Below are positions 29,888-58,100 of a stretch of 64,000 bases of DNA, one piece after another. The notes under the pieces were generated by a model that was not told the origin of the DNA, made no database searches, and was given only the letters and a program-made list of their open reading frames with translations. Origin of the DNA: a virus. The position numbers and the translations under genes were made by a program. Location: positions 1 to 64,000 of IMG/VR virus record IMGVR_UViG_3300046011_007348; one strand, given 5' to 3'. Positions within the stretch are counted from its first letter, which is position 1. The number at the start of each line of letters is the position of its first letter.

Positions 29888-30601
29888 ATGCCGTGGCTCT
29901 CTAATCAAGACTGTATTAGTTATGCTCCCAGCATTACTTTGACTGGAGAGCCATTGACTACTGCAATAACTTTAGCTCAAAGTTTAGTGGAAGGAGTTAA
30001 TGGCTCTAACCGTCCATTAGCTCTAACAGAATTTACTAAAATTTTGTCTATACCAAATACTGGAAGAGTGATTGTGCCAATACGTCCACTACTTCCTTCT
30101 CCTGCTCCTGTAATAGAATTAAGAGGGAGTGATACTCCGCCTCGCTTTGGTGTTTATTCTTTACAAGAATGGGAATTACTTACTTTAGATAAAGATTATA
30201 TTATTGATTACGATAACAATGAAGTTGGCTTATTGTCTCTTAGTCGAGTGTTAAGACATGAATATTTTTATCACACTGGATTTAGGAGATATAGTCGCAG
30301 TCCAACAGTTCCTAGACTAAAAAAACAACTTAAAATTACTTATTATTCTGGTTTTAATTTTACAACTAACACAGAGGAAGTTGTAATACTAAAACGTGCT
30401 TTAGCTAGTATTGTGGCTATGAGAATTTCTCCTCAATCACAGGGAGTAAAATCTGTAGATGTTTCTGACGAGAAGTACAAAGTAGAGTATGCATCACAGT
30501 CAGATTATCTTGGAATAAGTGGCAACAAAACTAGTGGTAGCCCAATAAATGAGTTATTATCAATATTTAGAAAATATCGCCCAAGTGAGTACACGTCATG
30601 A
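29888..30601 (+). CDS. Head-tail connector protein (gp6/gp15-like position)
   Basis: 237 residues. The later helical part (EEVVILKRALASIVAMRISP) after a beta-rich Tyr-laden segment (KDYIIDYDNNEVGLLSLSR, LKITYYSGFNF) is typical of connector proteins that follow the capsid gene. The ATG at 29888 is taken over a TTG nine bases upstream. It overlaps the next gene (ATGA), as connector genes do. Assignment is from order and secondary-structure pattern. Confidence 0.6.
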   Translation: MPWLSNQDCISYAPSITLTGEPLTTAITLAQSLVEGVNGSNRPLALTEFTKILSIPNTGRVIVPIRPLLPSPAPVIELRGSDTPPRFGVYSLQEWELLTLDKDYIIDYDNNEVGLLSLSRVLRHEYFYHTGFRRYSRSPTVPRLKKQLKITYYSGFNFTTNTEEVVILKRALASIVAMRISPQSQGVKSVDVSDEKYKVEYASQSDYLGISGNKTSGSPINELLSIFRKYRPSEYTS

Positions 30602-31038
30602 ATATTGAGCAACTTGTCAGTGGCGCGTTAGAACATTTGCCCGATAATTATTTTAGTACAGTTAATTTAGAGTTAAAATTCAACGTTGGCAGTGGTAGTT
30701 TTACAGTAGATCCAGAGACTGGGAATTATGTTCAATCATCTACTCCTACTACACTATTAGTTTCTGCAACTGAATACAAAGATCCAAAAGTGCTGCAAAT
30801 GCCTGGCAGCTACAGTACTAGCTTAATCCAAGTCGAAGGACGGCTGAGTAATCCAAAATTGATGCCAACTACAATCACTGTTCAATCTGTTGGTACAGCT
30901 AAACTAACTAATAACGATGGTTCTATATTTCAAGGAACTTGGAAGTTCATAGCTATTACACAGAACAGAATAAATGCTTACACAACTAAAAGAGGTACGT
31001 TAATACGAGGTACTATAACGCTGCCAACAGCAGTCTAA
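30598..31038 (+). CDS. Head-tail joining protein
   Basis: 146 residues, beta-rich (VQSVGTAKLTNNDGSIF then GTWKFIAITQNRINAYT). Following the connector in an ATGA overlap, and preceding gp10-like and tail-completion genes (after the reverse-strand sigma gene), it fits the head-tail stopper position. No family motif is recognised, so the role is inferred from order. Confidence 0.5.
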   Translation: MNIEQLVSGALEHLPDNYFSTVNLELKFNVGSGSFTVDPETGNYVQSSTPTTLLVSATEYKDPKVLQMPGSYSTSLIQVEGRLSNPKLMPTTITVQSVGTAKLTNNDGSIFQGTWKFIAITQNRINAYTTKRGTLIRGTITLPTAV

Positions 31039-31057: not shown

Positions 31058-31086
31058 TTGACAGGGATAAAATAGGATGCTATATT
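31058..31086 (+). promoter_or_regulatory. Strong sigma70-type promoter
   Basis: TTGACA, a 17-base spacer, then TATATT. It lies after the joining gene and reads into the leader of the DUF3310 gene. Confidence 0.85.
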
Positions 31087-31117
31087 AATTTTATTCGATA
31101 AGCAATAGGCAAATTCT

Positions 31118-31165
31118 ATGTTTGATTACGATTATCCCGAACGGGATAAAAAAGACAAACAGTAA
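31118..31165 (+). CDS. Possible 15-residue leader peptide
   Basis: ATG at 31118 opens a 15-codon frame (MFDYDYPERDKKDKQ) that ends at 31165 inside the leader between the promoter and a terminator hairpin. It is Asp/Lys/Tyr-rich and has no strong ribosome site. A leader peptide is only one option; it may be chance. Confidence 0.3.
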   Translation: MFDYDYPERDKKDKQ

Positions 31166-31210
31166 GCTCTAACTTACTAACTTGCAATAGCTACACCACA
31201 ACACAAATGG

Positions 31211-31233
31211 GGCCTCCGCAAGGAGGTTTTTTT
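31211..31233 (+). promoter_or_regulatory. Terminator-like hairpin that also covers the ribosome site
   Basis: A stem of CCTCC/GGAGG (31213-31217 / 31222-31226) with a GCAA loop, extendable by two G-U pairs, is followed by seven Ts. The GGAGG arm is the Shine-Dalgarno site for the ATG at 31237. So folding both ends transcription and hides the ribosome site: an attenuator or translational switch. Confidence 0.65.
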
Positions 31234-31236
31234 ATT

Positions 31237-31455
31237 ATGTCAAACGTAGATCACCCACAGCATTACACAGCAAGTTCAGTTGAATGCATTGATGCAATTG
31301 CAGCAGCTTTATCTCCGGAAGAGCTAAGAGGATTCATCAAAGGCAATGTCATCAAATACTTATGGAGAAGCGAACACAAGAATGGTAATGAAGATTTACA
31401 GAAAGCTTTATGGTACTTAAATTGGTATGTCAATAAAATCAAAAATCCATCATAG
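31237..31455 (+). CDS. DUF3310-family protein
   Basis: 72 residues. The start SNVDHPQHYTASSVECIDAI and end GNVIKYLWRSEHKNGNEDLQKALWYLNWYV match the DUF3310 family, widespread small phage proteins of unproven function sometimes annotated as nucleotide kinase-like. The ATG at 31237 has a GGAGG site ten bases upstream, which sits in a terminator-like hairpin. It converges with the sigma gene, overlapping its end by 17 bases. Confidence 0.8.
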   Translation: MSNVDHPQHYTASSVECIDAIAAALSPEELRGFIKGNVIKYLWRSEHKNGNEDLQKALWYLNWYVNKIKNPS

Positions 31456-32395
31456 AGTTTTTGTGTAATTTTCCATTTACCACCTTATATTGCTTTAGCC
31501 AGTTATAGGCAGTAGATTGGCAAACACCTAAATAGAGTTTGCACCATGCGAATGATTTGCCATTAGAAAGTGCGTTTAAGACTGTTATCTTGACATTGTC
31601 ATCGTAAGAAGGCCTGCCAATTTGTAATGGATTTTCAACAAACTGACTTTGGCAACTTTTGCATAAATATTGCTGCCTATTTCCTCTTTTCCCGTTCTTG
31701 ACAACATTTTTGCTTAAACAGCTAGGACAAACAACAATATCGTTGACTACATTTTTAAGTAGTTCTATACCTTCAGATTCTAGTTGTTTAATTTGGTATA
31801 CTGACAAATTTAATAATGACTTAATATCTTGTATTTTATAATCTTCAATATAAATTAATCTAAGTATTTGTGCGTGCTTGCTTGGAATTTTAGCTAGTAT
31901 TATCTCTAATTCATCGATAGTAGAGTTATCAAAGTAACTGATTTCAGGAAGTTCTATGTGAATTTTATCATGAGCTATCGCAGCTTCTTTGGCGGTTAAT
32001 TCTGAAATAGTCAAGTCCCTAGCTGATTGTTCATAAGTAATGCCTTTCTTTTTAGCATTACGCATTATTTTCTGATAAATGTCTTGGATATTCCTAGGGA
32101 TTTTAACTAATCTGTCCTTGTCCCGCAGGAACATTAGCATATATCCATTTATAAAAGGAACAGCAAAGCTGGACAACTTTTTAGACTTTTCAGGATTATA
32201 TCTTTCAATAGCTTGAATTAATCCTAGACACCCAATTTGTACTAAATCCTCTAATGGAACAGAGCAAGACTTCTGGACTTTTTGAGCAACAGAGTAGACA
32301 AGTCCTAAATTCTTTTCTACAATCTTATTTCTTATTTTTATGTCTTTACTCTCGTAGTATTTGATTAGCAGCTGTTGGTTAACATCAAAATTCAT
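31439..32395 (-). CDS. Sigma-70 family factor fused to an InsA-like zinc ribbon and helix-turn-helix
   Basis: 318 residues. Residues 1-110 carry sigma region 2 (NLGLVYSVAQKVQ, LEDLVQIGCLGLIQAIERYN, FAVPFINGYMLMFL, VKIPRNIQDIYQKI) and residues 110-215 regions 3 and 4 (ILRLIYIEDYKIQDIKSLL). From 220 on, C223-x2-C226 with C245-x2-C248 in V-x-K-N-G-K and Y-L-C-K-S-C matches the zinc ribbon of IS1-family InsA, and SNGKSFAWCKLYLGVCQST then AYNWLKQY is its helix-turn-helix. No sigma factor with this tail is known to me. GTG at 32398 precedes ATG at 32395; ATG is chosen. It probably directs RNA polymerase to phage promoters. Confidence 0.85.
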   Translation of the reverse strand: MNFDVNQQLLIKYYESKDIKIRNKIVEKNLGLVYSVAQKVQKSCSVPLEDLVQIGCLGLIQAIERYNPEKSKKLSSFAVPFINGYMLMFLRDKDRLVKIPRNIQDIYQKIMRNAKKKGITYEQSARDLTISELTAKEAAIAHDKIHIELPEISYFDNSTIDELEIILAKIPSKHAQILRLIYIEDYKIQDIKSLLNLSVYQIKQLESEGIELLKNVVNDIVVCPSCLSKNVVKNGKRGNRQQYLCKSCQSQFVENPLQIGRPSYDDNVKITVLNALSNGKSFAWCKLYLGVCQSTAYNWLKQYKVVNGKLHKNSMMDF

Positions 32396-32469
32396 CACAT
32401 TAACACAAATGTTACATATTTATGTTACTTTAAAAATGGCAACTTTATAGGTAAACTATTCAGGAAACT

Positions 32470-32877
32470 ATGAAAGCTATTTGGAATAAAAATATTAATA
32501 TTTCTCCTAAGACTGCTACTTATACTTGGAGTGCAAATTACGCTCCTATTGTTCATGAAGGCGGTACGAGAAAGGATGGAAGTGATTTACCTGCTCGTCC
32601 CTGGGTTTGGAGAACCGTAGGATTAAATGGACAGGAAAGACGTTATGATATTGTACAGGATTTCAATGATAAAATACGTACAGCAAATAGTTTCGATGAA
32701 TTGTTTGAGGACATTGCAACTGAACTTAATAGTGAATTTAGGAAGACTATAGAAGCTGAAATATTTGCATGGGATGCAACGACAAAAAGGAAAAATAGCT
32801 CTACAGTTACGTCTCCAAGAAATATTGTTGATTTAGGAAATTTAAGAAACTCTCAATCTATGTCTATACAGCCATGA
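32470..32877 (+). CDS. HK97 gp10-like tail completion protein
   Basis: 135 residues. YAPIVHEGGTRKDGSDLPAR followed by PW is the signature of the HK97 gp10-like family, in which a Y-A-x-x-V-H-E-G strand precedes a loop and R-P-W. These proteins act at the tail end that joins the head. It follows the sigma gene divergently and overlaps the next gene (ATGA). The N-terminal strand and C-terminal helix fit the fold. Confidence 0.75.
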   Translation: MKAIWNKNINISPKTATYTWSANYAPIVHEGGTRKDGSDLPARPWVWRTVGLNGQERRYDIVQDFNDKIRTANSFDELFEDIATELNSEFRKTIEAEIFAWDATTKRKNSSTVTSPRNIVDLGNLRNSQSMSIQP

Positions 32878-33248
32878 ATGTAGCTGAATTAAACACACAA
32901 CTAAGAACGCTATTAAGCACAGAGTTAGGAGTATACAGCAACGGTACTCCTAGTATTTGGGTGTATGGTTCAACAAGCAGTCCACCATCTGTAAGTAATG
33001 GATTGGAGTGCTTAATACGTCAGAATCCGATTGGATATGCCGGCGGATCTAGTGCTGGGCAAAGATATAAACCGCAGCAGTGGGAGATAATTCTTAAGAA
33101 TTGGAAGCGAGATTCTAATTTAATAAAAGCAATATCTAAAATAGAGCAACGTTATTGTGTTATGTCTTTGACACACATACCATTTAGCAATGAATTTATA
33201 GAACAGGCAACTATTTTTATTAAAGATCCAATTTTTATTAACACTTAG
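32874..33248 (+). CDS. Tail terminator / tail completion protein
   Basis: 124 residues. The early helix (NVAELNTQLRTLLSTE) and the strand QQWEIILKNWKRD fit the small alpha/beta tail terminator that caps the tube. It overlaps the gp10-like gene and comes just before the tail-tube genes, the expected order. No single diagnostic residue is visible. Confidence 0.6.
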   Translation: MNVAELNTQLRTLLSTELGVYSNGTPSIWVYGSTSSPPSVSNGLECLIRQNPIGYAGGSSAGQRYKPQQWEIILKNWKRDSNLIKAISKIEQRYCVMSLTHIPFSNEFIEQATIFIKDPIFINT

Positions 33249-33286: not shown

Positions 33287-34495
33287 ATGCCTTTAGCAAC
33301 TAGTTCTTTAATATTACAGAATACAAGCTTAGATTTAATTTTATTACCTACAAGAGACGCGCTTTTTGGTGCAGTAGATAGATCTGTATCAACAGTCAAA
33401 ATTAAAGCTGGGACTACAGCTACTACAGTTGACATAGGCGCTACTAGTTTAAGCTTGCAATCTGACAGCCCAATTTTTGTAAAGCAGGGAACGTCATTAT
33501 CTTTCTCTGGAGACTCAACTAACAAATTTAGAAGACAAGTAATTATCAATGAAGATGTTTTACTGAATAATACTCCAAAAGCTGTTAGGGTATATCCTTT
33601 ATTGCGCCCAATAGTTTCTACTGCTGCTTTAATAGATGCTGAAACAGTTGGTGTGGCTAACTTACGGTTTGCTAAAAATTATAAAAATAGCAGCACTATT
33701 TCAGTTACGAGTTCTTCTACATTATTAACGGCGAGTACAGGCAATTTTGCAGCAGTAGAAGTTGGAGATACAGTATCTCAAGGTGCCTTTGTTGCCACTG
33801 TAGTGTCTAAGAGAAGTAATACTGTATTAACAATTAGCACAGCTCCAGCCACTGCTTTTTCAAATACATCAGTAGTATTCGCTTCTAACTCGGCAGCTCC
33901 TCTTCTTTCTAGTATTAGTTCTATAACAAACACTTCAGGTAGTGCAAGTTTAAGCGGTTCAAACGATCTTTTTGCTTTGGTAGAGGTTGGAGATTTAGTA
34001 AGTGGGACAGGTGTGGCTGATGATACTTATGTATTATCAAAGCAAAGTAATAACTCTATAACTCTTAATAAAGCATCTACTAGTGGAATTACTAGTGCAA
34101 CTTTTATTTCTCGTATTGCTTCAACACCATTAACTGGTATCCAAACACTTGATTTGAATAATCAAGAAACTCAAGTTGATACTACTCACTTTGGCTCTGG
34201 CGCTGGCACTGAAGCTGCAATTGTTAGATTTAATAGAAGCTACTCTGCATCTGGCATTGCGTTAATTGGTGATGAAGCATTAGAAAGAATTGTAAAAAGA
34301 GTAGCTGGATTTGACAATGCTTTCTTGGGCAGAGAAGTATATGCTATTGCAACTACGTCCGATGGAGAAGCTATCGAAGGTGCTGCAAAAATCATGGCAT
34401 TAAACTTGCCTGCCAACCAAAACGAAGTTAAGAAATACTCTTTCACTCTTATGTATCAAGGCAATGCTGCTTGGGTACAACCTTACTCTTATTAG
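33287..34495 (+). CDS. Tail tube protein, large version with inserted repeats
   Basis: 402 residues. Residues 285-402 share with the two downstream paralogues the core LTGIQTLDLNNQETQVDTTH, then AAIVRFNRSYSASGIALIG, then LPANQNEVKKYSFTLMYQG. Between a short N-terminus and this core lies an extra region of about 130 residues with two G-D-x-V units (VEVGDTVSQGAFVATVVS and VEVGDLVSGTGVADD). The core probably builds the tail tube and the insert may project outward. It is first of three tandem copies. Confidence 0.75.
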   Translation: MPLATSSLILQNTSLDLILLPTRDALFGAVDRSVSTVKIKAGTTATTVDIGATSLSLQSDSPIFVKQGTSLSFSGDSTNKFRRQVIINEDVLLNNTPKAVRVYPLLRPIVSTAALIDAETVGVANLRFAKNYKNSSTISVTSSSTLLTASTGNFAAVEVGDTVSQGAFVATVVSKRSNTVLTISTAPATAFSNTSVVFASNSAAPLLSSISSITNTSGSASLSGSNDLFALVEVGDLVSGTGVADDTYVLSKQSNNSITLNKASTSGITSATFISRIASTPLTGIQTLDLNNQETQVDTTHFGSGAGTEAAIVRFNRSYSASGIALIGDEALERIVKRVAGFDNAFLGREVYAIATTSDGEAIEGAAKIMALNLPANQNEVKKYSFTLMYQGNAAWVQPYSY

Positions 34496-34506
34496 GAGAA
34501 TAAATC

Positions 34507-35295
34507 ATGCCTTTAGCTACCGCGTCTCAGATTTTACAGTCTTTTTCTCTTGAAATGATGCTTTTGCCATTAGATGCTTTTGGTGCTGCCGATAGATCTT
34601 CTACTGGGTATTCAACTGCAACTATTAGCACAACTGGTGCTGCTGTAGGTGCTACGTCTTTAAGCATAACTACTAGTTCCGCTGTTACTGGTACTTCAAC
34701 AAACTTTGCTATTAATGCTGGGACAGCTTTATCTTTTGCTGCTAGCGGCGCAAAATCTAGGCAACAAGTCGTAGTAACCCAAGATCTTCAAAGTATTTTA
34801 ACTACATCTACGACAATTTCTATTTCCCCATTACTTCGCCCAATAGCAGCATCATCAACTGCTACTTTGATTTATCAATCATCAACTAATATTACTGATA
34901 AGGGCGCTACAAAGCTATTGCCATTAAGTGGTATTCAAACACTTGATTTGAATAATCAAGAAACTCAAGTTGATACTACTCATTTTGGCTCTGGCGCTGG
35001 CACTGAAGCTGCAATTGTTAGATTCAATAGAAGTTATTCTGTATCTGGAATTGCATTAATTGGTGATGAATGCTTAGAAACTGTTGTTAAAAGAGCAGCT
35101 GGTTTTGATAACGCTAGACTTGGCAGAGAAGTGTATGCAATTACAACAATGCCTGATGGCGAAAGAATTGCTGGTGTTGCAAAAATCATGGCACTAAACT
35201 TGCCTGCTAACCAAAACGAAGTTAAGAAATACTCTTTTACATTAATGTATCAAGGTTCTATTTACGAATGGACTGCTCCTTACTCTAATTTTTAG
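34507..35295 (+). CDS. Tail tube protein, paralogue 2
   Basis: 262 residues, the same core as paralogue 1 without the inserted units. The shared core is nearly identical at DNA level to that of the first copy over some 100 bases (for example around 34933-35025), pointing to recent duplication or gene conversion. It has a GGAG site just before the ATG. Either copy could be the main tube subunit. Confidence 0.8.
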   Translation: MPLATASQILQSFSLEMMLLPLDAFGAADRSSTGYSTATISTTGAAVGATSLSITTSSAVTGTSTNFAINAGTALSFAASGAKSRQQVVVTQDLQSILTTSTTISISPLLRPIAASSTATLIYQSSTNITDKGATKLLPLSGIQTLDLNNQETQVDTTHFGSGAGTEAAIVRFNRSYSVSGIALIGDECLETVVKRAAGFDNARLGREVYAITTMPDGERIAGVAKIMALNLPANQNEVKKYSFTLMYQGSIYEWTAPYSNF

Positions 35296-35323
35296 TATGG
35301 CTTACTAAAAGCTAGGGGGATAA

Positions 35324-36052
35324 ATGGCTTCTACTTCGCAACCACTAAGAAGTTGCTGCTTAGAAATATTGCTGCTTGACGTTAATTCTGATGGCAGCAC
35401 TATTACTGATTTATTTAAGACAGAAATAGAAGTAGTAGAGACGGCAAACATCTCTGCTACTTCTGTTAAACTGCGCAGTTATACTGATGTATTCTTACCT
35501 GCTGGCACTTCTCTATCTTTTGTTAATCCAGACGCTGACGGCATAAATACATACAGAAAGCAAATTATATTAACAGAAGACACAACGATAGAAGAATTTA
35601 CTACAACTGTTAAAATCTATCCTTTACCTTATTTTTTGCGGCAAGGTGATATAGCAGAAGCCATAGAAGGAATTTTGCCATTATTTGGATTGCAAACAAT
35701 TGATTTATCTTCTCAGGAAACTCAAGTAGAAACAACAAATTTTCGCTCTGGAAAAGGCGTAAATAATGCTTTTGTAAGATTAGCTAAAACATGTAATGTT
35801 ACTGGCATAGCATTGGCAGGAGACAGAGCATTAGAAACTATAGTAAAACCAGTTGGTATTTTCTCTAGTGAACTATTTGGCAGGGACGTATATGTAGCTG
35901 TTACAATGCCAAATGGCGAGCGATTTGAAGGTATAGCTAAAATAGGATCTATGGCATTACCAGCTAATCAAAATGATGTTCAAAAATTTAGCTTTACTTT
36001 ACTATTCCAAGGTGAAGATTTTGTTTGGCATCCTCCCTTCATTTTTAGTTAA
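35324..36052 (+). CDS. Tail tube protein, paralogue 3
   Basis: 242 residues, more diverged: LFGLQTIDLSSQETQVETTN and LPANQNDVQKFSFTLLFQG align with paralogues 1 and 2. It may be a minor tube protein, perhaps at one end of the tail. A GGGGGA stretch precedes the ATG. It ends the tube-gene run. Confidence 0.75.
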   Translation: MASTSQPLRSCCLEILLLDVNSDGSTITDLFKTEIEVVETANISATSVKLRSYTDVFLPAGTSLSFVNPDADGINTYRKQIILTEDTTIEEFTTTVKIYPLPYFLRQGDIAEAIEGILPLFGLQTIDLSSQETQVETTNFRSGKGVNNAFVRLAKTCNVTGIALAGDRALETIVKPVGIFSSELFGRDVYVAVTMPNGERFEGIAKIGSMALPANQNDVQKFSFTLLFQGEDFVWHPPFIFS

Positions 36053-42439: not shown

Positions 42440-42820
42440 TTATTTAACATCATAGACTAAAAAGTTAGAACTCCATTCCAAAATGGATAGCAACATCTTT
42501 TGAAAAAAAATTATAAATAATGATTTGACTTTTACTACTGACTTAAAGATATTGATTTTAATGTTCCTGATTTCAAAAGTAACTGCATGAGATGCATCAT
42601 CAACTGAAACCAAGACAATTGATTTGATTTTAGATGGTTCAAATTTATCTGTCTGCATGTTATTAGAGCGTAAAAAAGCAATAAATCTAGGATAATGTTC
42701 AGTTATCAATATCCAGATATCGTCTTGACAAGATATAAATAAATCATATCCTTCTTCACTTTGAAAACCTGAGATTGAGCAATATTCAAGTATTTCTTTG
42801 ATAGGATTAAGATTATTCAT
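42440..42820 (-). CDS. Hypothetical protein at the end of the tail-tip operon
   Basis: 126 residues, Ile/Val/Phe-rich. A hydrophobic, partly basic stretch (VVKVKSLFIIFFQKMLLSIL) could be a membrane or buried helix. It overlaps the gpK-like gene by four bases. No family recognised; a holin-like or tail accessory role cannot be told apart. Confidence 0.5.
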   Translation of the reverse strand: MNNLNPIKEILEYCSISGFQSEEGYDLFISCQDDIWILITEHYPRFIAFLRSNNMQTDKFEPSKIKSIVLVSVDDASHAVTFEIRNIKINIFKSVVKVKSLFIIFFQKMLLSILEWSSNFLVYDVK

Positions 42821-43587
42821 TCAAAACTCCTGTGTCTGCATATATATCGTGTTGCATGTTTCCAGTAAGTGCCACCATAAACAAACAATTCGCTAGTTCT
42901 TTCACCTCCTAGATTATGTAAACCAGTGTTATTGTCATCAATTATTATGCTTACATGGTGAGGTTGTATGTTGTTTAAGCTCATAACAATGACATCATTT
43001 TTTTGATGTAATTCTCCAAATTCTAACTTACGGAAATTAGCTTTTTGGAAATTCTCTTCTATTAGATTCCAAGAAGAAGATGTTGTTTCTTGCAAAGAAA
43101 ACCCACGGGGAAAATCAGGTAAAGATATATCTAACATTCCTTTATAATAAGCTCTAAGCAAGCTAAAGCAGTCAGTCCTATTGTAAACAAATGGCCACTT
43201 TAAATAATAGTTGACTTCTTTAGGGGAACCGTCAATGAACAAAGGAAATGGATTAGCTAAATTTGCTGGATCAAACAAGTCCCAGGATTCAAAAGCAGAA
43301 TGGTACAGAATATATTTTATCTTACTGGATTTTGCATTACAAATATCTGGCGGGCTTAGATATTCGCTTTGTTCTGTCTTCCAGTGAGTGTGGTAAACAC
43401 CTTGGATGTCATTGTATCCAACTATTAAATCTAGTTCGTCCGGTTCAATAACAAATGCTTCATGCTTGTTCTCAGCAGCATTTGTACATCTATACGGCAC
43501 GTCTTCCACAATGACACCGCAAACTTCTTGTTCTGGAAACTCCTTTGCGTGTTCAATTATATGCTCTTTTATGTAAGCAGATATCAT
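42817..43587 (-). CDS. gpK-like tail-tip peptidase (JAMM + NlpC/P60)
   Basis: 256 residues with two domains as in lambda gpK. The JAMM/MPN part has E21-x-C-G and G-V-Y-H66-T-H68 with S78 and D81 as likely zinc ligands. The NlpC/P60 part has the Cys in NRTDCFSLLR (C140) and His in PHHVSII (H210/H211). Both cut peptidoglycan or tail precursors at infection or assembly. The gene follows gpM/gpJ-like genes, as in lambda. Spacing in the JAMM motif differs slightly from the usual, so the first domain may be weak. Confidence 0.8.
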   Translation of the reverse strand: MISAYIKEHIIEHAKEFPEQEVCGVIVEDVPYRCTNAAENKHEAFVIEPDELDLIVGYNDIQGVYHTHWKTEQSEYLSPPDICNAKSSKIKYILYHSAFESWDLFDPANLANPFPLFIDGSPKEVNYYLKWPFVYNRTDCFSLLRAYYKGMLDISLPDFPRGFSLQETTSSSWNLIEENFQKANFRKLEFGELHQKNDVIVMSLNNIQPHHVSIIIDDNNTGLHNLGGERTSELFVYGGTYWKHATRYICRHRSFE

Positions 43588-43958
43588 ACTCTTGGTGGGT
43601 AAACTTTAGAAATTATGCTGGCGTTAGATCTTACTTGAGTACTTGTTATTTTAGTAGAGATTGTGTATTGATTTTCTCCAACTGTGGTTACAGTCCATTC
43701 ATCACAAACACACTCTTTAAGATCTTCTCCTGTAGGACTCCATTCAAAAGAAGATAAAGAGTACTGTCGTAAATCAGCTAAAATAACATCTAATTCAGGC
43801 TTGCTATACACTGGACTGCGCACATCCCATTCACAATATGGTGATATGCCCTGCGTTAAGATTTGGCTGTAATTATCCCCTAATCTTGTTTTAATAGTTG
43901 GGATAATTGTGTTTTTAGATAACTGCCACAATGGCGATAATTCCAGCACTAAACTCAT
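43584..43958 (-). CDS. Second gpM-like minor tail protein
   Basis: 124 residues. The segment KECVCDEWTVTTVGENQYTI and following ISTKITSTQV match the end of the forward-strand gpM-like protein at 47897 (EWTIQALGEGIDLFSATFEQ), so the two look like distant paralogues. It lies between a fibre-like gene and the gpK-like gene with ATGA overlaps. Role in the tail tip is likely, exact place unknown. Confidence 0.55.
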   Translation of the reverse strand: MSLVLELSPLWQLSKNTIIPTIKTRLGDNYSQILTQGISPYCEWDVRSPVYSKPELDVILADLRQYSLSSFEWSPTGEDLKECVCDEWTVTTVGENQYTISTKITSTQVRSNASIISKVYPPRV

Positions 43959-44473
43959 AAGACAAAATATCCGATTGTGTAATTAAACGCAGAAGCAGCA
44001 CTTGAGACAATATTCAAAGCAGTGTTAGCTGTTAGCTTAAATTCTCTATTTGCTGCAAGACTTATATCTTTGACAGAACCTTGAGAGGACAAATAAAAGC
44101 GAATTCTGTCTGTAGATCCATCTCGAATAGTAATAGTCTGAGCGGTAGTACCTTCTAATTCAACTCTAATGAAAGACACATAAATACTTACTCCCGCTCC
44201 TGGCGCTGCTATTGCTGCTGTGGTAGTAGCAGTACTTGCAGTACCAGTTACAAATAGCATTGTTGGCGATACATTAGTTTTTACTAGTAATCTTTTTGCT
44301 AAAGAGATTAAACTTGCTGATGCAGTGTCTGATGTAGCAGCAGTGTCATCTTTAGTCCCAATAGCTGTTGATTCAAATTGCATCACATCTGGATTATTGG
44401 CAGTCCCAGCCCCTGAAGTTGTAGCTCTTTCCCGTAGTTGTCCGGCTCCGTCGATATATTTAACGCTTGGCAT
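43955..44473 (-). CDS. Tail-tip structural protein, Thr/Ala-rich
   Basis: 172 residues. MPSVKYIDGAGQLRERATT starts it; the middle is Ala/Thr/Gly-rich beta (TAAIAAPGAGVSIYVSFIRV) and it ends LTANTALNIVSSAASAFNY. This resembles small phage receptor- or fibre-binding proteins, but no family is firm. It is between the FN3-like gene and the gpM-like gene, overlapping the latter. Confidence 0.5.
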   Translation of the reverse strand: MPSVKYIDGAGQLRERATTSGAGTANNPDVMQFESTAIGTKDDTAATSDTASASLISLAKRLLVKTNVSPTMLFVTGTASTATTTAAIAAPGAGVSIYVSFIRVELEGTTAQTITIRDGSTDRIRFYLSSQGSVKDISLAANREFKLTANTALNIVSSAASAFNYTIGYFVL

Positions 44474-44474
44474 A

Positions 44475-44948
44475 TTAAAAATCTAAAGCAATGAATGAGT
44501 TTATTTTAGCACTTAACTTTAAGCTGTACGTTGTGTAATCCACAATAATAAATGACTCAGCCCAATCAGATGGATTTGTGTTGCTAAAAAATGTTGCCTT
44601 GACTCTTGCATAATAAGTAGTCTTAGGCATATTTGAAAACATGGCAAATGTCTCTATTGTGTTTTGAGCCATTTCCCATGCTCCTGTCAATCCTTTCTTA
44701 ATCTCTACAACATATCCAATTGTCCATGGAGAATTTTGCAAAGAACCATTGATTGTCTGTTGAGGTGGAAGCCAAGAAACATAAATATCAAAAAAGTTTG
44801 CTCCTTCCGTGATTGGAATACCATCAGCTGATAGTTTACCAATTGGATTAGTTGATACTGTAACTTCTCTTGGAACTACATTAACGTTGGGAGCATTAGA
44901 AGACACTCGTTGAGGCAACGAATCAAAAGCCCATTGTACTGGTGTCAT
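44475..44948 (-). CDS. Fibronectin-type-III-like tail-tip protein (gpJ continuation)
   Basis: 157 residues. FFDIYVSWLPPQQTINGSLQ followed by WTIGYVVEIKKG and YYARVKATFFSNTN is the look of a FN3 domain, usually found in the C-terminal part of central tail-tip proteins of the gpJ type. Here it is a separate gene overlapping the gpJ-like gene by four bases, as if gpJ had been split. Confidence 0.65.
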   Translation of the reverse strand: MTPVQWAFDSLPQRVSSNAPNVNVVPREVTVSTNPIGKLSADGIPITEGANFFDIYVSWLPPQQTINGSLQNSPWTIGYVVEIKKGLTGAWEMAQNTIETFAMFSNMPKTTYYARVKATFFSNTNPSDWAESFIIVDYTTYSLKLSAKINSFIALDF

Positions 44949-46879
44949 ATTGTTGACATACTATCAATAAAACTATATTTAGTACTATCATATTCTGATG
45001 CAGTAATTTCATGCATACCTTCAATCGTTTCTGAAACAGGCACTCTATTTATTACTCGATATTGTTTAGGAACAACAGAATTGCCGGATAATATCCAGTT
45101 AGATTCAGGTGGTGGTGCTGCACTAAAAGCAGAAGTTACTGTGACAACTGAAGTTGTATTAGCAGTGTTTTGTATTGTTTTTTGTTGCCAAGTACCATCA
45201 CTCAAAGTAACACTAATTTGATATGTTTGCCCTACCACTAACGTCACTGGACTATCTAGATTAATTGTGGTTGTAGTAGCTGAAATAATTAATCCTCCAG
45301 CACGCATTTCTAATCGTTCAGAGTCAGATACAGCAATAATATCTCCTGGTTTTATAAAAGCTGCATAAGCTCTAGCTTTAAATGTTACTGTCTCTTGTTC
45401 TAATCTATCAGAAATTAAAGCTGCCACTCCTGCTCGTCTTGCTTGTCCTCTGCTAGTGCATGCAATAGCTTCTAATTCTAATTCTTTAATTCCCCATTTT
45501 TGTATAGCAATTGGATCTTCTACCATCTCAACTGTTTTGCGGTAAAAATCAGCTGGATTTAGCCAACTTACTAATGCTACAGTTTTTTTGGATTTTAGCC
45601 CAACTCTGCTATATATAAAAACCCCATCTTCAACATCTGCTTGCGTAAATTGGTATTTAATAGCATCTGGTTTATCTGCAATAAATGTTATTGTTCCAGC
45701 CTGCCAATAAGCAAATCCTCTAAATATTGATATTAAAGATTCCAGTACTTGATATGCTTCTGTTTTAGATTGTAAGACAATATTACATTGAAATCTTGGC
45801 TCATAAATTGGGCTACCATTTGTGCTATATCCGCTTGGAACTAATTCATTACAGTATTTACTAATTTCGTATAATCCCCATTTATCTATTTGTTTAGTAT
45901 CAATATACTTGCCAAGTCCATATCTAGTATTTGTAATTAAATCATATAAAATCCATGCTGGATCTGAAACAGCTACGTTTGGCGTTTGGAAAACTCCATT
46001 CCAAACACCTTCGTAAAGAATACGTCTATTCAATCCATCTATTATGGCATTACTTGGAACTTGTACTAATCTCCCAAAAACTTCAAATAAGACATTTGGG
46101 ACTGAGCTAAACCCAGATGTGTCAAATGAAAAAGCTGTTAAAGCTGTATTTGGATAATTTAATTTTTTGTTTGTAATTTTTGCGTAAGAAACAAACGACA
46201 TACTGCGTTGATATCCAGTCTTTTCAGTTTCTGCATTATCTAAAGTAAGTTTGATAACTTTAATAGATAAATTACCCAACCCAGTAACTGGAGGAAATCT
46301 AAATCTATAATCAAATTCTGTTGGGCTTGAATAACGCCCAGAAACTACATTGTAATAAGTAAATAATGTTTCATAAGCATTATTTACTTCTCGTTGTATA
46401 ATAATTTGAAATTCTATATTAGTTGTTTCAATATTACCATTATCTGGATTCTGTCTTTGCATTTGAAAAGACAATTTTACTTTAACTTCATCAGGAATAC
46501 CACCTTGAATTTGTTGAGTAACACCAAGATTATTTCCTTCTCCATTCCATTCTACTGCTGCATTTACAGATATTTCGTTTGAAATAGTATCTCCAAATCC
46601 AAATAATTCAATTGGTGGTTGAATTTGAGTTCCTGCACGATAGTCAAATTGAACATTCTTGAAATTATCACTATTATCTTCATTTTTGACTGGAGTTTCA
46701 TCTAGATAAACTCTAGTCAATGGATTTGTCCCAAAACCTTGTATTGGGCCTTCTGAGATTGCTCCTAAAATGTAAGCAATCGAAGTACTTGTCCCTGTCA
46801 CTCTAGCAACATTAGGAGTTCCTCTTCCTCCTTTACCGCCGCCACTTCCTTGGATTTTTTTATGTTTTTTGTGTTTCAT
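44945..46879 (-). CDS. Central tail-tip protein (gpJ-like)
   Basis: 644 residues. RVTGTSTSIAYILGAISEGP then IQGFGTNPLTRVYLDETPV is the classic gpJ-type start, with YRAGTQIQPP later. The middle has strands like GRLVQVPSNAI and YEGVWNGVFQTPNVAVSDPA, WILYDLITNTRYGLGKYIDT, and LKSKKTVALVSWLNPADFYR, all typical of the gp27-like hub domain of these proteins. It is shorter than lambda J because the FN3 region sits in the next gene. It forms the tail tip and touches the receptor. Basic, Gly-rich N-terminus. Confidence 0.85.
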   Translation of the reverse strand: MKHKKHKKIQGSGGGKGGRGTPNVARVTGTSTSIAYILGAISEGPIQGFGTNPLTRVYLDETPVKNEDNSDNFKNVQFDYRAGTQIQPPIELFGFGDTISNEISVNAAVEWNGEGNNLGVTQQIQGGIPDEVKVKLSFQMQRQNPDNGNIETTNIEFQIIIQREVNNAYETLFTYYNVVSGRYSSPTEFDYRFRFPPVTGLGNLSIKVIKLTLDNAETEKTGYQRSMSFVSYAKITNKKLNYPNTALTAFSFDTSGFSSVPNVLFEVFGRLVQVPSNAIIDGLNRRILYEGVWNGVFQTPNVAVSDPAWILYDLITNTRYGLGKYIDTKQIDKWGLYEISKYCNELVPSGYSTNGSPIYEPRFQCNIVLQSKTEAYQVLESLISIFRGFAYWQAGTITFIADKPDAIKYQFTQADVEDGVFIYSRVGLKSKKTVALVSWLNPADFYRKTVEMVEDPIAIQKWGIKELELEAIACTSRGQARRAGVAALISDRLEQETVTFKARAYAAFIKPGDIIAVSDSERLEMRAGGLIISATTTTINLDSPVTLVVGQTYQISVTLSDGTWQQKTIQNTANTTSVVTVTSAFSAAPPPESNWILSGNSVVPKQYRVINRVPVSETIEGMHEITASEYDSTKYSFIDSMSTI

Positions 46880-46881
46880 GG

Positions 46882-47898
46882 TTAAGAACCACCATGCTCA
46901 TATTCTGAAGCACCATACTCATATCCTACATTCCAATGTATTTCTAGTTTTTGAGAATAATCGTAATTTTGAGATAATCCAGATGTTACTGCTCTAACAC
47001 GAATTGTCCAAGGGTTGACATTTGTATTGATATAAAAAGAACTGCACACAACAAAACCAGCCCCATCGTCTAAAGAGCAATTATATCCAGTTGAATATAG
47101 ATCCTCTGTCAAAAATCCTTGTGGGTTAAAAATTAATTTATTTCCAGATATTATAAACCGAGAATTATAAGTATCTCCATCCCCTTGCACTAAAGAGAAA
47201 GTAACAGGAGAGTTATTTGGATCTCCCAAGAATTGAAGAGTAGCAAGTTCACTATTTGCTTGGTATGAATCAGGATCAAATGAAGTTTGATTTTGAAATC
47301 TTATCTGAAGTGGATTACCACTAATTGAACTATCCACTCTACTTGAAATAACATACATACCTGTTTGTATTCTTCCGTATACAACAGGCATTCTACCGCC
47401 TTCTTGTGTGTTGTTAGGCAATCCTCCTATCGTTTTACTCGTTGGCTCCTCTTCCGGCTTGGCTGGCTTAAATAAAGAGCTAATACCAGCAAGTAGTAAA
47501 ATACTTCCTAATAAAATTGTGGTGCTAGATGTAAGTAGTGGAGTTCCCCAAATAGTTATTCCACCTGGAACCCAAATAGCTAAAGCAAACATTGCAGCAG
47601 CGCCGAGCCACATCCACCAATTATCTCCGCTACCAGCAAGCACAGGGACAATTCTAATGTTACGTACTTTCTTAGATATTGGGCAGCTAAGCTTGTCAAT
47701 TTTATCGTTAGTTATGTTTTCATGTCCAACAACTATGCGATATCTTACGCCACGATTTTCAGCATCTTGTAAATAACTTAAAAAATTGCTAAAATTAGCT
47801 TTTAAAGCACGAAGTACTTCAGCAACTGATTCTACCGCTAAATCAAGTTTGCTTGTAAATAAATCGCCTAATTCACCTTCTAGGAAGACAGAGATCAT
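46882..47898 (-). CDS. Tail assembly protein I-like (gpI)
   Basis: 338 residues. The start, MISVFLEGELGDLFTSKLDL then AVESVAEVLRALKANFS, matches lambda gpI, as does VLAGSGDNWWMW and a hydrophobic middle (about 100-140) with two membrane-like stretches. GGRMPVVYGRIQTG near 170-185 is a common motif. The C-terminal half is beta-rich and larger than usual, resembling cadherin-like or Ig-like strands. Its ATG shares bases with the oppositely directed gpM-like ATG (CATG). Confidence 0.8.
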   Translation of the reverse strand: MISVFLEGELGDLFTSKLDLAVESVAEVLRALKANFSNFLSYLQDAENRGVRYRIVVGHENITNDKIDKLSCPISKKVRNIRIVPVLAGSGDNWWMWLGAAAMFALAIWVPGGITIWGTPLLTSSTTILLGSILLLAGISSLFKPAKPEEEPTSKTIGGLPNNTQEGGRMPVVYGRIQTGMYVISSRVDSSISGNPLQIRFQNQTSFDPDSYQANSELATLQFLGDPNNSPVTFSLVQGDGDTYNSRFIISGNKLIFNPQGFLTEDLYSTGYNCSLDDGAGFVVCSSFYINTNVNPWTIRVRAVTSGLSQNYDYSQKLEIHWNVGYEYGASEYEHGGS

Positions 47899-48226
47899 GA
47901 GTTATCCTATTATTCCTTTGGTTCCAAATTGGGACAGCACAAAGTCAGAGCAATCAAATATTATTGTAACTAAATACCAGCCTAACACAATTGAGGCAAG
48001 ATCATCAAGAACTAAAATCAATACCACAAATGTTACTTTCTCTGTGTCTGTTAATATAACTAATGGAACTGCTGTAGACACATTCTTGAGAGAACGTAAT
48101 GGCAAAGCATTTAGAGTGGAAAATGACACTATGCTTTACTCTTGTACAGAATGGACTATACAAGCATTGGGAGAAGGTATTGATTTATTCTCAGCTACAT
48201 TTGAACAAGTTAGGAGATTTTTATGA
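47897..48226 (+). CDS. gpM-like minor tail protein
   Basis: 109 residues. FSVSVNITNGTAVDTFLRER and the end EWTIQALGEGIDLFSATFEQ match the gpM family, which joins tape measure and tail tip. The ATG at 47897 lies on the palindromic CATG shared with the reverse-strand gpI-like start; a longer reading into the gpI gene has no support. It overlaps the gpL-like gene by four bases (ATGA). Confidence 0.7.
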   Translation: MSYPIIPLVPNWDSTKSEQSNIIVTKYQPNTIEARSSRTKINTTNVTFSVSVNITNGTAVDTFLRERNGKAFRVENDTMLYSCTEWTIQALGEGIDLFSATFEQVRRFL

Positions 48227-48954
48227 TTCCAAATTTATTAAGTTTGAATCCAGATTCATTTATAGAATTATATGAAATATATAAATACAGAGTGGAAGAT
48301 ATAAATAAAGATGAAGCTGCACAAAATCCTAACGTGCCATCAACAATGATTGAAACAATTAGGATTGGTAGTATAGCTATTGATGAAAACACACCATGGG
48401 TTGTCTTTGAAGGCAAAACTTATTATGCAGTTGGATGCCAAGGAGAAGGATTTGATTTAATCGGACGTGGTACTATTCCTACTCCAACATTAACTGTATC
48501 TAACGTTGGTGGTATTTTAACTAAATGGCTAAAAGACAGTAGAGATCCAGCATACAGACTGGAAGGCACACACGTCAAAAGGCGCGTGACTCAAAAAAGA
48601 TTTTTAGATGGACAAGTAGATGCTAATGCTGGGGTAAAAGAACTGCCAATACAAATTTATGTTATTGAACAGCTAGTAGAAGAGAACTATACTAACGCAA
48701 AATTCAGACTTGGATCTGCCTTTGACGTTGAGGGAATAACATTGCCAGCTAGAGTAATGGTGCGTAGCTGCACTTGGGTATATCGTAGTCCAGAATGCAG
48801 TTACGCTAATCCTGCAAAATTTACAATAAATAATGAGCCAACCCAAAATGCAAGTGAAGATTTCTGTGCAAAAACTATTGCAGCTTGTGAAACAAGATTT
48901 GGTGCAGGCAGTATATTACCATTTGGTGGATTCCCAGGATTAAATACTTACTAA
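48223..48954 (+). CDS. gpL-like minor tail protein with iron-sulphur Cys set
   Basis: 243 residues. The C-terminal domain has C183-x8-C192 and C215-x6-C222, the spacing of the four cysteines that bind an Fe-S cluster in lambda gpL, plus R-F near 225 and FGGFPG at the end. The N-terminal part has the gpL-style start (NPDSFIELYEIY) and GDSR-like strand order. It sits in the tail tip. The gene is on the forward strand with gpM, opposite to gpI, J and K. Confidence 0.8.
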   Translation: MIPNLLSLNPDSFIELYEIYKYRVEDINKDEAAQNPNVPSTMIETIRIGSIAIDENTPWVVFEGKTYYAVGCQGEGFDLIGRGTIPTPTLTVSNVGGILTKWLKDSRDPAYRLEGTHVKRRVTQKRFLDGQVDANAGVKELPIQIYVIEQLVEENYTNAKFRLGSAFDVEGITLPARVMVRSCTWVYRSPECSYANPAKFTINNEPTQNASEDFCAKTIAACETRFGAGSILPFGGFPGLNTY

Positions 48955-55188: not shown

Positions 55189-58100
55189 CTATCTTTTAAG
55201 TATTCCACCCTGTCTTTGTTGACGTTGTATTTCTACTATTACTGCTGTTTTAATAGCACTCTGCATCGCATTTGGATCTATGGACGGTGATTTGTCACCA
55301 TCTTGACTTTCAATCGTTATAGGCACATTTACAGTTGTATTTGTTGTTGGTTGATTAATATTTCCTAGTCCAGGAGATGGGGGAATAACTCCACCACTTG
55401 CAAAGTTCATTATGTTTCTTACTTTTAATTCGCTATTGCTTACGTTGCCTCCCATGGCATAGTTCATTACGGATTCAATATTGTTGTTTTTAATTGCTTT
55501 ATCTAATCCCATCGACTGGAACTTAGCATTGTCAGCAACACTCAACACTCTTTCTCCTGGCGTTAATACTGCTACTACTGGTGTTATTCCTCCATTTGCA
55601 GCTTTCTCTCTGACAATTGCTTCATTTAATGATTGAATTATGCCTCCACCAGCATAGTTCTTGATTACTCCTCCTTTGTATTGGCTGGATACTTCGCCTC
55701 CATCGTTGGCACTTGGGACTTCGCCGCCGCTATTTCCTCCAAATATTCCTCCAATTGATTTGAATAATGAATCAAGAATCCCTCCTGCTCCTACTAATGA
55801 TTGCATTAATGATTTGATAGCTATGTTGATAAGTCCGTTTAGCATGTTTTTAGCTAGGTTGTTTAAGACATCGTCTAGTTTTTGGACACCCATTATTACG
55901 TCTGTAAGCCCAGCTGATAAATCATTGATCAAAGAATCTCTAACCATTTGACGGATTGTCGAAACTACATCCTTAGCTGCGTTTTTAGACTCTTCTAGTT
56001 TTGCTTTGTATTTTTCTTCAATCTCCTTAGTTCTTTCTTCATATTCCTTGTCATCTATATCCCCCCCCTCTTTTTCTTTCTTTGCTTTATCTAGTTCGTC
56101 TTGTTTCTCTTTTTTTAAACGCTCTTCATCCATCCTCCGTTGTTCTGCATTTATTTGAAACTGATTGCCACCTTTGTCTCTATATATATTTAATCTTGTT
56201 TGAGCCGTTTCTTGTTTCATGGCAATGACAGTTTGCTTAATATCTTTTGTTAAATCTGTCATTAACTTGGTTTGCATTTCTTGGTTTTTCCGTACAAGAT
56301 CTGTTCTTTGTTCCTCATTCAACAAAACGCTTGCATTAATTTGAGCCTCACGCAAAGCAGTTGCTTTCTCGATTTCATACCGTCTTGATGCAAATTCACT
56401 TTTAGAAAAATTATAGTCAACAGAGTTCATTAAATCTCTTCTTTCAAACCTCCTGTCTACTTCTGTTTTAGTTTCGTTAGCTTTATCAATTTCAAGCTGA
56501 GATTGGTTTTGTATTCTTTTTATTCTAGTAATTTCTCTATATTTTTCTATTCTTGCCTCTGCGTCTACTGAGGTTAATAGTCCTTTTGCTACTAACTCCT
56601 TTGTGTTTAATTCATATTGTGATAAAGCATCTTCAATTTGAAGTTTTCTCTCTTCAAATTGCAACTCTGGCACTGAACGGATATTTAATAACTGCATTTG
56701 GTTAAATGGCATAAGTCCTTCAGCGAAAGAATTTTGTATTTGCGAATCTTGTGTTACAGGGAAATAAGTATTGCCTTCCAATTTGTATTCATCCATACCA
56801 CCAAATCCAAATTTGCTTCTAGGCTTCATTAGTTCCGTTAAATTATTAAATCTTGGTTCATTGGGGTTTGCTGTTGGCTTTTTCAGCTCTTCAATTAACC
56901 GTAAACCCTTCAATTCATCTACTAATTTAGCATTCTCCTTAATACTTTGATTAAACTTTGGTATATCTGAATGCAATTTATCAACATCTATGTTATATTG
57001 CTTAATGTCTGAGTCAGTCATCTGGATTGCTTTAGGATATATTTCCTGTAGCCTTAAGACTTCTTTGTCCAATCTTTGTCCTTCCGTCTTTTGCTTTTGA
57101 AAGATTTCTTCTAGGTATCCCTTTTGTTGTTCTGGTGTCGTAAAATCAATTGTCCCTACTCGTTTGATACTAAACTTTGGATCTACTTGTTCTTGGAATT
57201 TTATTTTCCCCCCAGAATACTCTCCTATCTCTCTACCCTTTTGACTTATATCTAATTCAGCTTGTCTTAAAACATTATCCGAATCTCTTATTTTAGATCT
57301 ATTCTCATACTCTCTTCTAAGCCTAGACATTGCTTTAGTTAATTTAATCCTTTCTTCAATTTCTTTCTTTTGAACGTCTATCGACTTCAAGGTAGTATCT
57401 AAAGTTGCTATATCCACTTTGAATCGAGAGGCTAATCGTTGTTCGTCTTTGTTAAGGCGATCTAGATATTTCTCTCTTTGTTTTACATCTGTGATTTGCT
57501 CAAGCCCTTTCCTGAGTGGGTTAAACAAAGCTAACGTATCAGTTAGTTTACCATCGGTTCCTTTTACAAAGGATTGTCTAAGAGAATTTAATCTCTCTTG
57601 GATATCTTGTCTTGTATCATTTAACTTATTAAGAGTGTCGGTTAACTTTATGCTTTCGGGTGTTAGTGGATCGGGTAATTTATCAGGAGAATATTCGTTA
57701 AGTATGTCAGAAAACGATCTTACTAAACTATTAGTGGAATCCCTAGACTCTCTGATTGTTTTTTTAGTATTTTTAAAGAAATTATCAAGATTACGAATAA
57801 CTGATGCTTCGTTTTGTTTTCTTAAAGCTTCAGCACGCTTTTTGTTTGCTTCATCTTGTTGTTTAAGAATCTCTTCCCTTTGTTTTTGAGAATCTGCGAT
57901 AGCACCAGTGTTTACGCCAGCAGATGGAGAAGTAGAGCCAGTATTAGCAGCGCCAGTATTGGCAGTCTCAGGATTATAGCTTCTAGCTCTCTGGAAAGTT
58001 TTCATGCTATCGCTATCTCCTACAAATCGCCAGTGCCATGGTTCATAATCTATACCTTGACGATTATTCTGAGGAAAAGATAATTCAAAGCCAAAACGAG

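Follow-up and report, generated by a model that had tools for sequence, protein, structure and literature searches.

The window analysed here is a stretch of 64,000 nucleotides from a 72,023-base virus record, which has long frames on both strands, including those of a terminase large subunit and a Neck1-like gene; its source is a virus of freshwater cyanobacteria. The original prediction, which gave no strand, placed sigma-70 regions, a zinc ribbon and a helix-turn-helix (HTH) in one frame, and this is borne out by a single open frame on the minus strand that starts at an ATG (32395) or possibly one codon upstream at a GTG (32398) (Table 1). The encoded protein is a SigF-like sigma-70 factor joined to a zinc ribbon plus HTH, the last two being referred to below as the tail.

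Table 1. Features at and around the fusion gene; positions refer to the window unless a contig is named.
Feature	Position	Strand	Observation
Neighbouring gene, no PHROG match	30598–31038	+	Homologues adjoin the sigma gene: Cr-LKS4 67%; L082, G309 and G630 31–33%
Fusion gene, 318 residues	31439–32395	-	Frame shared with eight IMG/VR contigs, of which one is partial
HTH of IS1 transposase type, residues 257–304	31484–31627	-	Predicted helices 266–277, 282–289 and 293–302
InsA-type zinc ribbon, residues 218–256	31628–31744	-	PF03811 at E 0.01 or better in 2/4 aligned tailed proteins, the window's among them
Sigma-70 region 4, residues 167–214	31754–31897	-	Pfam PF04545, E 9.6e-7; 3/4 tailed proteins at E 0.01
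Sigma-70 region 2, residues 25–95	32111–32323	-	Pfam PF04542, E 3.1e-17; 4/4 tailed proteins match
Gap from sigma start to next structural gene	32396–32469		Likely place of the sigma-gene promoter; no significant motif found
Tail completion / Neck1-like neighbour	32470–32877	+	phrog_222, E 1.5e-4; Cr-LKS4 39%, G309 32%
Conserved neighbour	32874–33248	+	Homologues near the sigma gene: Cr-LKS4 68%; L082, G309 and G630 27–29%
Further C-terminal extension	about L082 8931–9092	+	
Further C-terminal extension	about L074 9073–9234	-	
Further C-terminal extension	about L104 10341–10502	+	

Both sigma regions score above their Pfam cut-offs (Sigma70_r2, 62.6 bits against 24; Sigma70_r4, 28.7 bits against 24.1). 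None of the Pfam sigma models extends into the tail, and the alignment to PHROG 351 (RNA polymerase sigma factor) reaches residue 260. In the tail, Zn_ribbon_InsA (PF03811) matches residues 221–249 with an E value of 5.5e-6 and 26.5 bits, barely above the gathering cut-off of 26.1, and a match to HTH_23 at residues 289–303 falls below the Pfam threshold. The translation contains C223-x2-C226, C245-x2-C248, V-V-K-N-G-K and Y-L-C-K-S-C, so that each element of the predicted InsA-like pattern (C-x2-C / C-x2-C, V-x-K-N-G-K and Y-x-C-K-x-C) is present.

Eight other IMG/VR contigs carry the fusion; the gene is complete in all but L008, which has residues 117–318 only. Among the nine rows (the window, seven full and one partial) there are 17 variable codons, of which 16 are silent: all 14 in the sigma part and two of the three in the tail, the remaining one being a conservative Asp–Glu change at residue 266. 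Over the fusion gene the contig L004 does not differ from the window at all, and the two may be the same phage. A fusion unique to one read error, which the original prediction had named as a possible pitfall, or a chance frame is thus ruled out by the eight contigs, by the mostly silent variation and by the divergent homologues described below.

Genomic setting and related proteins

Searching virus and cyanobacterial genomes for the same domain pair, as had been proposed, yielded three divergent proteins with this architecture, which are 43–47% identical to that of the window: one in the viral contig L082 (47%) and two in phage regions of the cyanobacterial genomes G309 (45% over residues 6–313) and G630. 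When 386 cyanobacterial genomes were searched with the window protein, G309 alone spanned sigma part and tail among the matches listed. With the G309 protein as the query, 29 matches at E 1e-30 or better were obtained in 388 genomes of the order of G309, two of which span the tail (G309 itself and G630), and when 388 genomes of the order of G293 were searched with a profile, 21 matched at E 1e-40, the tail again being present in those two. The three genome sets overlap and five candidates were scored per genome, so weakly matching fusions may be missed. A scan of viral sequences with a pair of the proteins found ten loci (eight of the window type, L082 and L083), and the same ten contigs were returned when the four-sequence and tail-only alignments were used as queries. 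L083 looks like the G309 prophage, with equal protein length and start and shared neighbours. In all, the distinct tailed proteins thus number four: those of the window, L082, G309 and G630.

Several further candidates were rejected upon reading the frames. The tail match in L014 lies beyond two stops and no ribbon or HTH remains; the tblastn matches in L011 and L013 extend as far as residue 250, yet both open frames (of 256 and 236 residues) stop without a ribbon; and the 261-residue frame of G017 has no ribbon either. The window protein lacks an additional C-terminal extension of about 50 residues (Table 1) that the three other tailed proteins have in common: 69–70 residues follow the last Trp of the HTH in these proteins and 19 in the window protein.

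In the window, in L082, in G309, in G630 and in the isolated, infectious Cylindrospermopsis phage Cr-LKS4, the sigma gene is found amid structural genes of the phage and runs against the adjoining gene of the 30598–31038 type. No homologue of the gene at 32470–32877 was detected in L082 or G630 at E 1e-3. The sigma gene and the gene that follows it on its strand share 4 bases in L082, G309 and G630 (the following gene is ParB-like in G309); the terminase large subunit gene lies farther on in L082 and G309, with opposite-strand genes intervening. G309 has homologues of the window genes at 42817–48954 (38–53% identical) and of the long frame at 55189–63978 (30%), and G630 has homologues of the genes at 44945–48954 (41–52%). 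The other tailed members are the same kind of phage as that of the window, and the G309 region looks like a prophage because its phage genes are followed by a frame that is glmS-like by eye.

Cr-LKS4 provides one of the closest comparisons. Its g25 and the matching RM-2018a factor are 46% identical to the window protein over residues 1–217, and its sigma gene is also antisense among the same structural genes, the adjoining genes being 39–68% identical. The g25 protein, however, has 225 residues and stops just past region 4, without ribbon or HTH. As this infectious phage has a tailless orthologue in the syntenic position, the tail is not needed by every member of the family. The sigma factor is not discussed in the portion of the Cr-LKS4 isolation paper that was available (PMC10811720).

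The claim that known phage sigma factors lack such a tail holds, at 80% coverage of the query, for the records searched, with one caveat. None of the 216 phage records matching the window protein has a place covering 80% of the query, and with a G309-type prophage protein as the query this coverage was reached in 0/18 phage and 0/25 plasmid records (E 1e-10). The tail alone gave eight weak matches in phage records (E 0.02–0.6), annotated as hypothetical, transposase or terminase small subunit. The caveat is gp165 of Bacillus phage Moonbeam (L012, 1459–3003), a SigF-like protein of 514 residues with about 270 residues behind region 4; this extension has an HTH_23 match below the Pfam cut-off and no zinc ribbon match, and may be a parallel case of an extra HTH behind region 4. 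Our literature search on phage sigma factors with a zinc ribbon, phage sigma extensions and domesticated InsA did not find the architecture among the papers listed; the text seen of a jumbo-phage review covers two sigma types and separate zinc-ribbon factors and names no such fusion (PMC7824862). ECF sigma factors with C-terminal extensions likewise have a domain added behind region 4, but those described in the sections consulted are sensory or inhibitory rather than transposase DNA-binding modules, and they belong to the ECF class, unlike the window protein (PMC8999054).

Other features of the window were observed. The 3' end of the sigma gene overlaps that of a convergent DUF3310 gene by 17 bases (31439–31455). 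Ahead of the latter, 31058–31240 holds a strong sigma-70-like promoter (11/12, with TG before the second hexamer) followed by a leader that folds better than most shuffles (z = -2.63; 4/200 as good) and has no match in Rfam. The last, terminator-like hairpin of the leader holds AGGAGG ahead of the likely ATG (31237) of the DUF3310 gene, and a 15-residue leader frame, found by eye, contains DYPER, as does g24 of Cr-LKS4. At 33287–36052 there are three tandem paralogous genes, with a 300-base segment 61–86% identical to the reference copy, and Cr-LKS4 also has three genes matching them. An open frame of 1333 residues at 10–4011, ribonucleotide-reductase-like by eye, matches Hint / intein-splicing and LAGLIDADG homing-endonuclease domains and appears by eye to hold up to three inteins. 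The best 20 of 41 families of direct repeats are, by eye, paralogous genes or chance.

Origin, conservation and predicted structure of the tail

The tail is homologous to the N-terminus of IS1 transposases. Compared by hhalign with six cyanobacterial IS1 N-termini, it aligns over 81 columns through both ribbon and HTH (probability 99.5, E 4.5e-23), which supports the InsA relationship originally proposed. The tail differs from IS1 transposases in being joined to a sigma-70 factor, in its HTH core, which now reads GKS-x2-WC-x2-YLG, and in that no DDE part is seen: no Pfam transposase catalytic domain (InsB) was found in the four tailed proteins at E 0.01. When plasmids were searched by tblastn with the tail alone, 423 records had matches with E values of 1 or less. 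Two Nostoc places, both 39% identical, came first: one is unannotated (E 2e-9), the other annotated as an IS1 family transposase (E 4e-9). Specific binding of IS1 proteins to the inverted repeats depends on both the zinc finger and the HTH (PMC12428005).

In a tree of the tails with 16 IS1-type frames (ten from the plasmid matches and six from the searched genomes), the four tails are split from the IS1-type frames with a support of 100, which fits a single capture. Branching among the tails has weak support (59 and 84) and does not match that of the sigma tree (27 rows, 250 columns). Although the sigma part scores best in NCBIfam with cyanobacterial SigF (PRK07408; 139.7 bits, short of the curated cut-off of 261), the seven phage proteins in the sigma tree form a clade of their own (support 100) apart from the cyanobacterial SigF-like factors. 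Within it, the window protein groups with the tailless Cr-LKS4 type (98), and L082, G309 and G630 form a clade (92). The neighbouring genes agree with this: between the window and Cr-LKS4 the capsid gene is 56% identical and two sigma-adjoining genes are 67–68% identical, and between the window and L082, G309 and G630 the sigma-flanking genes are 27–33% identical where homologues were detected. One gain, with one loss in the Cr-LKS4 lineage as the sigma tree suggests, is the simplest account of the tail; two gains, or recombination, would be less simple alternatives. In the genome G004 (contig C198, L110), an IS1 InsA-like ribbon and HTH form the end of a frame that looks TetR-like by eye, perhaps because an IS1 inserted at the 3' end of the gene; this illustrates how such a fusion can begin.

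Cys223, Cys226, Cys245 and Cys248, the predicted zinc ligands, are invariant in the four aligned proteins, as are the HTH core GKS-x2-WC-x2-YLG and, further on, ST and W. Invariant columns number 35/87 in the tail and 66/217 in the sigma part; by part they number 43/110 around region 2, 11/57 in region 4, 19/39 in the ribbon and 16/48 in the HTH, so the tail is no less conserved than the sigma part as a whole and more so than region 4. Between region 4 and the first Cys the four proteins align without gaps. For G309 and G630, the one unsaturated pair (for the tail all other pairs are saturated), dN/dS is about 0.07 in the tail and 0.12 in the sigma part, values that are rough because dS is high (0.94 and 1.73). 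These figures show that the tail is kept under purifying selection.

The full-length AlphaFold2 model has a helical sigma part, a β-ribbon at 231–245 and three helices at 266–302; the tail was also modelled alone. The full-length model is modest (pLDDT 74.7, pTM 0.35) and silent on DNA. Using Foldseek, the top matches to the whole model are sigma factors of the SigB, RpoS and WhiG types, with TM-scores of at most 0.34 by query length; the tail fold returned nothing at E 0.001 (best E 0.16), and a sequence search of the PDB with the tail gave a best E of only 0.51. The HTH of the tail is weakly like the DNA-bound HTHs of Pax, IstA and resolvase (VIA-align, Z 5.0–5.9).

Possible role of the tail

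A binding site for the tail was sought among words of 7–9 bases in 23 intergenic gaps (2231 bases), compared with 20 random sets from an order-2 model, and no word rose above the random maxima. ATTGACA occurs in 8/23 gaps, where 0.7 would be expected of it, but the most frequent 7-mers in the random sets reached 8–9; and TATGTAACAT with one mismatch was found 11 times against 9.48 expected, which is the chance level. Only a promoter pattern of host type is in excess, with 14 occurrences against 7.53 expected; 3/100 shuffles had as many.

In sigma factors, region 4 contacts the -35 element and the β flap. The tail begins about ten residues past region 4, which would place it beside both and let it reach the DNA just upstream. 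From this position, the fixed spacing, the retained zinc ligands and the DNA binding of the IS1 module, we infer an extra promoter contact. In the ancestor of the phage family a SigF-like sigma-70 factor would have gained the N-terminal module of an IS1 transposase, without the catalytic DDE part, and the captured ribbon and HTH would then have been retained by purifying selection. Regions 2 and 4 would recruit the core of the host RNA polymerase, and the tail would add a sequence-specific contact just upstream of the promoter, giving in effect a sigma factor with its own activator domain and steering the holoenzyme to phage promoters (probably late ones, for head, tail and packaging) and away from those of the host. 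We lean, if only slightly, towards a domesticated transposon module that gives the holoenzyme a second promoter contact beside region 4. More tentatively, the repressor/transposase module of IS1 may have been turned into a reader of an upstream promoter element, so that one polypeptide is both sigma factor and activator and brings host polymerase to phage promoters without a host activator.

Other roles for the tail have to be weighed. The ribbon of TFIIB docks on its polymerase, and the tail could similarly be a protein-contact domain, its ribbon attaching it to RNA polymerase or to a further phage protein and coupling transcription to late development, with DNA binding lost after capture. 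The ribbon is indeed the most conserved part of the tail by the counts above, and two of the four proteins weakly match the Pfam TFIIB ribbon Zn_Ribbon_TF (best E 4e-4); the HTH is kept as well, however, with its invariant core, ST and W, and ribbon and HTH alike align with the half of IS1 transposase that binds DNA; we consider such a role unlikely. It is improbable that the tail is a regulatory lid or sensor that inhibits or activates the sigma factor according to zinc, redox state or a partner, in the manner of CorE. C-terminal extensions, including the cysteine-rich domain of CorE, do regulate ECF sigma factors, but in the sections consulted the extensions described are not transposase ribbon–HTH modules (PMC8999054), and a lid or sensor would leave the HTH spare and unexplained. 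The window protein is also not CorE-like in sequence: factors of that kind have a CXC motif in the sigma linker and a cysteine-rich C-terminal domain, and here the translation has no C-x-C and the tail is an InsA-type ribbon.

Two further readings keep the tail closer to its transposon past. It might still bind the ends of host IS1 elements and block them, shielding the phage from insertion with the sigma factor as a mere carrier. InsA represses the IS1 promoter and transposition (PMC12428005), and IS1-like frames are present in G309, the genome that holds one of the prophages; the tails are nevertheless split in the tree from the IS1-type frames, two from G309 included, which makes it unlikely that the old IS1 site is retained, and a sigma factor would be a strange carrier for such a defence. 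We regard this as very improbable. That an IS1-like N-terminus can land on a host gene, as in the TetR-like frame of G004, would allow the tail to be a functionless remnant read through in frame, but four divergent proteins retain it, dN/dS is 0.07 in the one pair and a single conservative change is seen in the 17 variable codons of the population, so that this hardly deserves credence.

Returning to the extra promoter contact, the retention of this piece in related viruses suggests a role in choosing which genes are read. Phage sigma factors are well known, but the phage and plasmid records searched and the papers listed contained none whose DNA-reading surface has seemingly been enlarged by a domesticated transposase domain that is conserved across a phage family. 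Since a natural tailless orthologue exists, what the domain does can be tested directly in vitro by comparing the factors with and without it. If the proposed contact is true, it would show one way in which insertion sequences give rise to new regulators.
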